In this document: piece after piece, positions 52,770 to 55,927 of the stretch
How positions within the stretch are numbered: position 1 is the first letter of the stretch
How the letters are laid out: every line of letters starts with the position of its first letter
DNA from: an uncultured Chloroflexota bacterium
GTDB taxonomy: Bacteria > Chloroflexota > UBA11872 > UBA12225
Reading direction: 5' to 3'
NCBI GenBank assembly: GCA_902805635.1
Contig: CADCTC010000050.1
Location: forward strand, 1 to 63,623
DNA: 63,623 nucleotides
Translations under genes and position numbers: made by a program
The notes under the pieces: model-generated
Database searches by the model: none
What the model was told of the DNA's origin: nothing
What the model saw: the letters and a program-made list of their open reading frames with translations, nothing else

Positions 52770-54188
52770 TTAGCGCAGGATGCTCGGCAGGATCCCCAGC
52801 TGTTCCCGGTACTTCGCCACAGTGCGTCGTGCTACGTTGATGCCGCTCTTGGACAGACGCTCAGCGATCTGCTCGTCGGTCAACGGCTCATTCTCGTGCT
52901 CGATCATGTCCTTGATCACGTCCTTCGCCGAAAGCGACGGCGTGAAGAAGTTGGCCAGCGGCACGACCTCACCCGATGGCAACATGATGTACTTGGCCGC
53001 CGTGGCGCGCGATACGGTCGATTCGTGTACGCCCAACTCCACCGCCACCATGGCGCGCGTCAGCGGACGCAGGTGGCGCACACCCTTGTCCAGGTACTCC
53101 GCCTGGTACGCCACCAAGAACGCAGCGATCCGCTGCAGCGTCTGCCGGCGCTGGTCGATGTTGGCCATGAACAGCCGGGCGCGTGAGACGTACTGCTGGA
53201 TGTGCTTCTTCTCGTTGTCGTTGAGGCTCGCCGCTTCTTGCTCGGCGCGCATCATCAGCTCGCGGTACAGCGGGTTGATGCGCAGGAAGATGCGCTTACT
53301 CTCCACCACGTCCACTTCAAAGCCGCGACCGCGCTTAGCGATGATCACGTCCGGCAGCACGTAGCCGGACGTGATGGCGCTGCCCGCCTGCGAGCCCTGC
53401 GCCGGGAACGGATTGAGGAACTTCTTGATGAACTGCGCCGTGTCCGACACCGCCTGGCTGCTGATGCGCATCTCCTGCGCGATGCGGCTGTACTTGTGCT
53501 CGCCAAGCTGGTCAAGGTGGTTCTCGATGACCTTGCGCGCGTGCGGATGCGTGATGCCTTGCTCCGCCAGCCAGTCGATCTGCAACAGCAGGCACTCCTT
53601 CAAGTCGCGCGCGCCAATGCCCACCGGCTCCTGCGACTGAAGCTCTTTCAGTACCGTTTGCACGTCCTCTTCGGACCGCTCCAGGATCATCGCCACGTGC
53701 TCGACGCTGACCTCCAGGAACCCACGTTCATCCAGGTTCCCCACCAGGAACTCGGCGATCTCGAATTGTTCGGGCCGCAGCACCGCCCCCAGCTCACGCA
53801 TCAGGTGCTCTTGAAGAGACATCTCCGACGCGACGCGGATCATCGGGTCGAAGTCGTCCTCCGGGTCCTTGCGTGACATCGACGGCCCTTCTTCGTAGAA
53901 GTAGTCGTCACGAGAGAGCGCCTGGTCAGCCGTGTCACGCCGGTCCAGGTCGTCCTGCTTCGGCACCGTCATGCAGTGCGGGCAGACCATCTTCTCCACC
54001 GCAGCGCCGCAGCGAGGACAGACATCCTTGTCTTCCATCTCCAGCGCCGGGTTTTCCGAAAGCTCCTGGGAGATCAGTTGCTGGAGCTCCATCGAGGAAA
54101 GCTCCAATACGTGGTTCATCGCCACCAGGCGTGGCGAGACCTTCATCTGCACTGTCGCGAGCTGGGAGAGCTCCATACCTTCTATCAA
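52770..54188 (-). CDS. rpoN: RNA polymerase sigma-54 factor with a zinc-ribbon insertion
   Basis: 472 residues from a TTG at 54188 that has GGAGGT six bases upstream; an ATG 12 bases later has a poor site, and MIEGMELSQL aligns with E. coli RpoN's start. Region I (activator-binding) and the core-binding and DNA-binding regions follow, with the RpoN box ARRTVAKYRE at 453-462. Between region I and the core region, about residues 57-72, there is CPRCGAAVEKMVCPHC, a four-Cys zinc-ribbon pattern absent from the E. coli protein. Sigma-54 directs transcription from -24/-12 promoters with AAA+ activators, and an NtrC-type gene lies directly upstream. Confidence 0.93.
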   Translation of the reverse strand: MIEGMELSQLATVQMKVSPRLVAMNHVLELSSMELQQLISQELSENPALEMEDKDVCPRCGAAVEKMVCPHCMTVPKQDDLDRRDTADQALSRDDYFYEEGPSMSRKDPEDDFDPMIRVASEMSLQEHLMRELGAVLRPEQFEIAEFLVGNLDERGFLEVSVEHVAMILERSEEDVQTVLKELQSQEPVGIGARDLKECLLLQIDWLAEQGITHPHARKVIENHLDQLGEHKYSRIAQEMRISSQAVSDTAQFIKKFLNPFPAQGSQAGSAITSGYVLPDVIIAKRGRGFEVDVVESKRIFLRINPLYRELMMRAEQEAASLNDNEKKHIQQYVSRARLFMANIDQRRQTLQRIAAFLVAYQAEYLDKGVRHLRPLTRAMVAVELGVHESTVSRATAAKYIMLPSGEVVPLANFFTPSLSAKDVIKDMIEHENEPLTDEQIAERLSKSGINVARRTVAKYREQLGILPSILR

Positions 54189-54361
54189 CTACCCACCTCC
54201 CTCACACGACCGCGACACGCTAGCGACACGATCGGGCGTCTTACGGGAACGAAATATGTGTAACACGCCGGCCGCAGTTACCTTAGCGCCGGCTCGCCGG
54301 GGCATCGAATAGCAAGATCTGTGCCGCGATGACGGCATACATCTTGTCTAGTTCGCCAAAG

Positions 54362-55786
54362 CTACACCGTGATATCGAGGCGCTTCGCCGTCGATTCGAG
54401 CACTGCGTCGGAGATCCCAAGCATGCGCGCGGTGAGCCCCTTGTCCTTGCCGGACTCGCGCAGCGCGAACTGGATCGCCCGCCGCTCGACACTCGATACC
54501 AGGTCCGGCAGCGACTGGCCGCGGCGCACCGCGGTTTCGATGTCTACCGCCCCCGCCGCCGATCCCATCACGGGCGAGTGCGAGAACACGATGTGATCCG
54601 GCGTGATCATGTCCCCCTGGCTCATGATCACGGCGCGCTCTATCAGGTTCTCCAGCTCGCGCACGTTGCCGGGGAAGTCGTGATGGATGAGCTTCTCCAG
54701 CGCCTCTTCTGAAATGCGCGACGGCGTGGGCGCGTTGTTGTAGCGGTGCTTTTCCAGAAATCGAAGCGTCAGGTTGCGCAGGTCGTCCAGGTTGGGGTCG
54801 GGGTGGTGCCGGTCGCGCAGCGGTGGCATCTCGATCGTGACCACGTTGAGCCGGTAGTAGAGGTCCTCGCGGAAGTTCCCCTTGGCCACCTCATCCGGCA
54901 GCCACTTGTTCGTCGCTGCAACCACGCGCGTATCGATCCGGATCGGGATGCTGCCGCCGACTCGCTCGAACTCACGGTCCTGCAAGACGCGCAGCAGCTT
55001 GCGCTGCGTCGCCAGCGACATCTCACCGATCTCGTCCAGGAAGATGGTGCCCTTGTGCGCCATCTCGAAGCGCCCCTTGCGCTGCGCGATGGCGCTGGTG
55101 AAGGCGCCCTTCTCATGCCCGAACAGCTCGCTCTCCAGCAGCGTCTCAGGCAGCGTGGCGCACGCTACCGTGACGAACGGCCCTCCCCGGCGGTTGCTGG
55201 CGCGGTGGATCTGCTCCGCCAGCATCGTCTTGCCCGACCCCGTCTCCCCCATCACCAGCACTGTGGCGTCCGACCGCGCGATGCGCGCGATGGTCTTGAA
55301 GACGTCCAGCATCTTCGGATGGCGCCCCACCATGCCGTCTGAGCCCGGTGAGGTCAGCTGGTCGCGCAGCTCGTGCACCTCGCGCATGAGGTCCTGGTGC
55401 GCGAACAGGTTCTTGATGGTGACCGAGAGCTCTTCCAGGTCGAAGGGCTTGGCAACGTAGTCGTACGCGCCAAGCTGGATCGCCTCGATCGCCATCTGTG
55501 ACGTGCCCGCGGCCGTGAAGACGATGGTCGGGATGTCCTTCTTCTCGTCCTTCAGCTTCTTGATGACCTCGATGCCGTTGGACCCCGGAGGCATGTTGAC
55601 GTCGATCAGCAGCAGGTCGGGCGGGTTCGCCCGCACCTTCGTGAGCGCCTCGTCGCCGGAGCGTGCCGGCTCAAAGGCGTACCCTTCACCGGTGAGGAAG
55701 CTCTCCAGCATCCCCACAATCGTTGGGTCGTCATCGGCTGCCAGGATGCGCTTGGTTTCAGCGCTGCCGTTGGTGGTAGCGGTCAT
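54362..55786 (-). CDS. Sigma-54-dependent NtrC-family response regulator
   Basis: 474 residues from the ATG at 55786. The receiver (1-130) has LLIDVNMPP with D62 and VAKPFDLEEL. The AAA+ domain has Walker A GETGSGKT at 180-187, Walker B TIFLDEIGEM around 248-256, and GHEKGAFTSAI where the sigma-54-contacting GAFTGA loop reads GAFTSA (227-232). HPKMLDVFKTIARIA and the sensor/Arg-finger region (FREDLYYRLNVVTIEMPPLRDR) are normal. A Fis-type HTH ends the protein (ARMLGISDAVLESTAKRL). It likely activates sigma-54 promoters when phosphorylated; the kinase is unknown. rpoN follows 173 bases downstream on the same strand. Confidence 0.93.
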   Translation of the reverse strand: MTATTNGSAETKRILAADDDPTIVGMLESFLTGEGYAFEPARSGDEALTKVRANPPDLLLIDVNMPPGSNGIEVIKKLKDEKKDIPTIVFTAAGTSQMAIEAIQLGAYDYVAKPFDLEELSVTIKNLFAHQDLMREVHELRDQLTSPGSDGMVGRHPKMLDVFKTIARIARSDATVLVMGETGSGKTMLAEQIHRASNRRGGPFVTVACATLPETLLESELFGHEKGAFTSAIAQRKGRFEMAHKGTIFLDEIGEMSLATQRKLLRVLQDREFERVGGSIPIRIDTRVVAATNKWLPDEVAKGNFREDLYYRLNVVTIEMPPLRDRHHPDPNLDDLRNLTLRFLEKHRYNNAPTPSRISEEALEKLIHHDFPGNVRELENLIERAVIMSQGDMITPDHIVFSHSPVMGSAAGAVDIETAVRRGQSLPDLVSSVERRAIQFALRESGKDKGLTARMLGISDAVLESTAKRLDITV

Positions 55787-55927
55787 CAGATCGTTACCAA
55801 TGAGTGTAACCGCCCCTGATTGTGCGCAGAAGGCCCGACGCGAGCCGGTAGTCCGCCCGGAGCGCACCTGAACGACGGCTTCGCGGCGGCGTCAGGGTAG
55901 AGTCCCGTTTCAAGGAAGTCAGCCTGC

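Follow-up and report, generated by a model that had tools for sequence, protein, structure and literature searches.

A four-cysteine zinc-ribbon-like element directly behind region I of sigma-54 in Chloroflexota

Introduction

In Escherichia coli, the activator hexamer threads the N terminus of sigma-54 (RpoN) into its pore, unfolding helix RI-H1; the number of residues unfolded and the end of the reaction are stated to be unknown in the available parts of the two reports (PMC9770992, PMC12054792). The following region II is ranked as the least conserved part of sigma-54 in the accessible text of PMC10786286 and is described as variable and nonessential in that of PMC12316311. According to the accessible text of PMC10786286, neither region I nor the beginning of region II is resolved in initial transcribing complexes. 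A zinc ribbon that serves sigma-54 has been described as a separate protein, the RpoN-protecting FlgZ (HP0958) of Helicobacter pylori. Its family (DUF164, PF02591) is defined, in the part of PMC3372290 available, by a Y/F-x18-23-CxxC-x18-26-CxxC ribbon behind a coiled coil.

Sigma-54 has been found in some Chloroflexi (PMC3162934, available part), and the accessible text of PMC12316311 holds no mention of "chloroflex." In the full-text literature searched, which mostly excludes subscription papers, we found no report of a zinc ribbon in sigma-54. Here, we describe a zinc-ribbon-like element inside the sigma-54 of Chloroflexota.

Results

The window analyzed is a stretch of 63,623 nucleotides (contig CADCTC010000050.1) from an uncultured Chloroflexota bacterium; the features considered are collected in Table 1. 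The rpoN product matched PF00309, PF04963, and PF04552 above cut-off at residues 7 to 51 (activator-interacting domain [AID]), 119 to 308 (core-binding domain [CBD]), and 328 to 470 (DNA-binding domain [DBD]), respectively, and scored 327.7 bits against the NCBI equivalog TIGR02395 (cut-off, 277.35). Judged by the three Pfam domains and TIGR02395, the product is a member of the sigma-54 family. All of its strong structure and fold matches were sigma-54 chains, and the product shares AID, CBD, DBD, and an RpoN box with the sigma-54 of E. coli and Klebsiella structures such as 7QV9 and 8F1I. A Pfam search of the whole genome returned rpoN as the sole PF04552 match, with no second sigma-54 gene. 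No Rfam RNA family was found within the window.

Table 1. Features of the rpoN locus in the window
Feature	Positions	Strand	Remarks
rpoN (sigma-54, 472 aa)	52770..54188	minus	start codon TTG (54188) or ATG (54176)
Region I / activator-interacting domain, residues 1-50	54039..54188	minus	ends NPALE; PF00309 at residues 7-51
Four-cysteine zinc-ribbon-like element, residues 57-72	53973..54020	minus	C57, C60, C69, C72
Rest of region II, residues 73-118	53835..53972	minus	acidic, length-variable; pLDDT <50 from residue 79
Core-binding domain	53265..53834	minus	PF04963
DNA-binding domain	52770..53207	minus	PF04552; RpoN box ARRTVAKYR
Candidate -24/-12 promoter	54311..54326	minus	CGGCACAGATCTTGCT, one mismatch to TGGCACNNNNNTTGCW; upstream of rpoN
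NtrC-type activator (receiver + AAA+)	54362..55867	minus	loop GAFTSA; next gene upstream of rpoN

A sequence-only reading of this DNA had pointed to a C-x2-C-x8-C-x2-C pattern at residues 57 to 72 of RpoN, and the pattern is indeed read there, on the minus strand. The stretch is CPRCGAAVEKMVCPHC; it lies directly behind region I, with a gap of six residues between NPALE and the first cysteine, and the protein has a single further cysteine, C199. Shuffling the whole protein gave a C-x2-C-x7..13-C-x1,2-C pattern in 6 of 200,000 trials, which, together with the conservation across the phylum described below, led us to reject a chance motif. In the full-length AlphaFold model, the region I helices (residues 19 to 29 and 32 to 45) form a block with pLDDT above 90. 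A strand at residues 49 to 52 leads into the ribbon, over which confidence is moderate (about 71 to 74 for residues 51 to 70), and disorder follows. A 100-residue fragment modeled from nine sequences had a confidence of 66 overall and contained a small hairpin (55-56/63-64).

The element shares with DZR (PF12773) and Zn_Ribbon_1 (PF13240) two CxxC knuckles with CPxCG, and of the Pfam families DZR comes closest to it. Unlike those families, it is a single ribbon with a loop of 7 to 13 residues, is built into sigma-54, and stays under the Pfam cut-off. The window protein scored 19.9 bits against DZR (cut-off, 27.3) and does not count as a DZR member; with E values up to 1 allowed, DZR matched 20 of 30 members (best E, 0.00073).

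To see how far the motif extends within the phylum of the window, we surveyed 400 genomes and read every locus with a match. Sigma-54 was present in 119 genomes and, within the window's class, in 3 of 41, so that the factor itself is patchy. The loci yielded 137 distinct sigma-54 open reading frames (ORFs), of which 132 were counted after exclusion of five fragments lacking the N terminus. Two cysteine pairs were found in 130 of the 132 proteins, in the form CxxC..CxxC in 125 and CxxC..CxC in 5, and the idea of a single-genome oddity was rejected. The sequence-only reading had looked to the recurrence of the CxxC pairs in related RpoN proteins, and we found the cysteines conserved rather than drifting. 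It had also put a zinc-ribbon pattern in the linker that joins the activator-interacting part to the core; a zinc-ribbon-like element at this place is now strongly supported by four cysteines that are nearly universal in the phylum. The labels of ribbon-bearing relatives include Anaerolineaceae, Anaerolineales, Chloroflexi, and Anaerolineae. All five CxxC..CxC proteins belong to one family, f14 (loci L006, L187, L210, L216, and L219), and combine the C-x-C second knuckle with a longer loop. Several genomes of the phylum have two or three sigma-54 genes.

The two ribbonless proteins among the 132 are L227 (genome G124) and L019 (genome G359). In L227, the linker is cut down to a Pro-rich stretch, and its sister proteins L218, L197, and L200 (support, 1.0) all bear the ribbon; L227 represents a genuine loss within a group of carriers. 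L019 lies on a contig of 6,030 bases (G359:C35) whose ORFs read lptC-lptA-lptB-rpoN-hpf-ptsN, which we take to be a proteobacterial gene order. Because of this order and a position outside the ribbon clade, we treated L019 (with L231) as contamination and not as a genuine ribbonless Chloroflexota sigma-54. The contig is probably a proteobacterial contaminant in a Chloroflexota genome, and L019 is still included in the 132.

The anatomy of the linker relates the ribbon to region I. In an alignment of eight diverse proteins, the only invariant columns between residues 51 and 113 were C57, C60, G61, C69, and C72. Six residues separate NPxLE from the first cysteine in 128 of 139 distinct proteins, whereas the spacing between the last cysteine and the CBD ranged from 24 to 60 in the same 139. 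This contrast indicates that the ribbon is tied to region I and only loosely joined to the rest; by spacing, it behaves like an extension of region I. Apart from the ribbon, the linker was free of cysteine in 131 of 134 carriers. The sequence between the cysteines is variable across carriers, and the loop between the knuckles spans 7 to 13 residues (8 in the window protein).

Region I and the CBD lie on average 65 residues apart in 137 ribbon-bearing proteins, compared with 73 residues in 67 proteins from other phyla; 18 rows were skipped in this comparison. Since the distance is no greater than elsewhere, the ribbon takes over the opening part of region II instead of lengthening the protein. 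An acidic stretch is retained behind it, with a net negative charge of 0.17 per residue compared to 0.24 for linkers from other phyla. The earlier placement of the cysteines at the acidic spacer of E. coli is correct for the most part, with the ribbon filling the beginning of region II and the acidic stretch persisting behind it. In other phyla, the corresponding part is nearly free of cysteine and acidic.

For sigma-54 outside the phylum, genome contigs were scanned and the best 80 of 588 relatives were taken, 79 of them distinct. Nine were excluded: eight carry Chloroflexota-type labels, have a complete N terminus, and all bear the ribbon; the ninth, L048, is a fragment labeled only "bacterium." In this sample of phyla drawn from the best 80 of 588 relatives, none of the 70 remaining linkers contained the four-cysteine ribbon or more than one cysteine: 68 had none and 2 had one. 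We also searched with a profile, A4, that spans region I and the ribbon (67 positions; cysteines of its first row at 48, 51, 60, and 63). All 14 matches in 12 genomes of other phyla stopped at positions 41 to 47, before the ribbon. In the phylum of L115 (labeled Actinomycetota), 9 of 296 genomes matched A4; seven sigma-54-sized frames ended at 45 to 47, and in two unrelated frames the match was confined to the ribbon part. The phyla of L108 (labeled Clostridia; 214 of 348 genomes matched) and L124 (labeled Planctomycetaceae; 318 of 343) were judged by the profile end positions of the best-scoring matches rather than by sequence reading. Among the matches listed for either phylum, none went past position 51, so the second cysteine pair was never reached. 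Viral contigs gave 69 pattern matches, none of which was a relative by tblastn, and viral carriage was rejected.

We then built a FastTree tree from 214 distinct CBD and DBD sequences, with region I and the ribbon excluded. Ribbon carriers formed one clade (support, 1.0) that contained six ribbonless tips, namely L227 and the five fragments lacking the N terminus. To explain this pattern, one gain and one loss are sufficient; the computation shows a single origin of the ribbon, which would lie at the root of Chloroflexota sigma-54.

PF00158 gave six matches in the window's genome; the activator next to rpoN was the single strong one (next best E, 7e-7). The suggestion that the ribbon helps contact an activator with a changed GAFTGA loop did not survive comparison with 31 distinct Chloroflexota activators near ribbon-type rpoN genes. 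The fifth position of GAFTGA was G in 20 and S, N, or D in 11, and the ribbon was present in all of the genomes, whichever loop the activator had. As unchanged and changed loops both occur beside ribbon-type rpoN, presence of the ribbon is not linked to a changed loop, and we rejected the ribbon as a partner of such a loop.

The -24/-12 pattern TGGCACNNNNNTTGCW occurred 11 times in the window's genome, compared to 4 for a reversed-pattern control. Counts above the control were also obtained in the relatives G002 (14 versus 2) and G004 (12 versus 4); there was no excess in three other genomes of the phylum, G055 (5 versus 4), G052 (3 versus 3), and G043 (0 versus 5). The candidate site upstream of rpoN in the window is, taken alone, no better than chance. 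Of 128 rpoN upstream stretches across the phylum, 38 contained a site deviating from the pattern by no more than one mismatch, compared to 0 of 128 for the reversed pattern, although these loci are related and the 38 are not independent events. From the pattern counts and the sites upstream of rpoN, this sigma-54 probably works at -24/-12 promoters, with DNA recognition of the usual kind. The candidate upstream sites suggest positive autoregulation of rpoN in many lineages.

In the window's genome and in relatives, canonical -24/-12 sites often preceded genes of a stress or envelope kind: BON, PRC-barrel with DUF2382, Hsp20, three Transgly_assoc (GlsB-like), YflT, DUF308, and DksA/TraR (loci including L248, L252, L261, L270, L272, L275, L283, L284, and L286). 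Of 20 proteins scanned behind such sites, 6 had no Pfam match. In the window's family, a general-stress-like regulon may be under the control of sigma-54 and its one activator.

Discussion

The ribbon is very probably a structural metal-binding element, with zinc the most likely metal, that belongs to region I. According to our model, the four cysteines would fold round one metal ion and the ribbon would form an end-piece attached rigidly to the C terminus of region I. As the AAA+ activator draws the N terminus of sigma-54 into the pore, unfolding the first helix of region I, the ribbon could dock the end of region I onto the polymerase or the promoter complex. Alternatively, it could act as a knot that does not pass the pore, so that pulling would halt after region I and the CBD would stay put. 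The sigma factor would otherwise be an ordinary one, working at -24/-12 promoters. As a whole, this explanation (a structural ribbon, gained once, that serves as end-piece of region I and as anchor or stop during pulling) falls just short of an even chance; the anchor or stop role by itself is tentative. That the ribbon is a mechanical stop proper, a metal-pinned knot limiting how far the activator pulls and unfolds sigma-54, seems unlikely. Against the explanation stand the natural loss in L227, which marks the ribbon as dispensable, and the sigma-54 of other phyla, which do without it. The C-x-C second knuckle of the five f14 proteins and the moderate model confidence also count against it.

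Nucleic acids and proteins are frequent ligands of zinc ribbons, and the ribbon might instead be a docking module with no role in pulling. It would bind a fixed surface of RNA polymerase (the beta protrusion or flap) or promoter DNA and would replace the acidic, DNA-mimicking start of region II. Its place at the first part of region II fits this idea, as does the E. coli region II, which fills the downstream DNA site and the RNA exit channel (PMC10786286, available part). However, the spacing is fixed to region I and not to the CBD, and the variable sequence between the cysteines makes no conserved binding surface evident. We consider such docking to polymerase or DNA possible but doubtful, nearly as likely as an anchor or stop; sensing is less likely. 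The sequence-only reading had raised the latter, with metal occupancy or cysteine oxidation switching sigma-54 activity in response to zinc or redox state. Four cysteines in a regulatory linker, and promoters that partly serve stress-type genes, would suit a sensor. Yet the ribbon is kept in essentially the whole phylum, including Anaerolineae-labeled genomes, and Anaerolineae are generally known as anaerobes. A short, fixed knuckle containing CPxCG is the usual mark of a structural site, and the receiver domain of the activator already supplies a signal input. The motif is thus phylum-wide, strongly conserved, and short-looped like structural ribbons, with no sign of sensing, and we regard a sensor as improbable.

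Shielding of sigma-54 from proteolysis, as an in-cis counterpart of FlgZ, is distinctly unlikely. FlgZ prevents RpoN turnover and needs its ribbon cysteines to maintain RpoN levels (PMC3372290, available part), which is the precedent for such a role. The PF02591 ribbon, C-x2-C-x18..26-C-x2-C, differs from that of Chloroflexota sigma-54: FlgZ is a separate protein of coiled coil and ribbon, whereas the window RpoN carries its ribbon internally, behind region I and with an 8-residue loop, and thus falls outside the FlgZ/DUF164 definition. Moreover, within the phylum PF02591 was present in 64 of the 119 genomes that have sigma-54 and in 155 of the 281 that lack it (P = 0.83). It is neither enriched nor depleted, which indicates no trade-off with an in-cis ribbon, and replacement of FlgZ was rejected. 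A functionless relic or neutral insertion could draw on the one lineage without the ribbon (L227) and on a region II that is variable and nonessential (PMC12316311, available part). Retention of the four cysteines throughout the phylum, within an otherwise drifting linker, makes it very improbable.

A four-cysteine element is thus nearly invariant in one phylum, although region II ranks as the least conserved part of sigma-54 (PMC10786286, available part). The ribbon provides a simple molecular marker for Chloroflexota sigma-54, and models built on enterobacterial sigma-54 only overlook an architectural class. Its fixed distance to the segment that the activator unfolds offers a natural handle on how the pulling of sigma-54 is limited. 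If the ribbon were a mechanical stop, a whole phylum would have a built-in terminator of the remodeling reaction.
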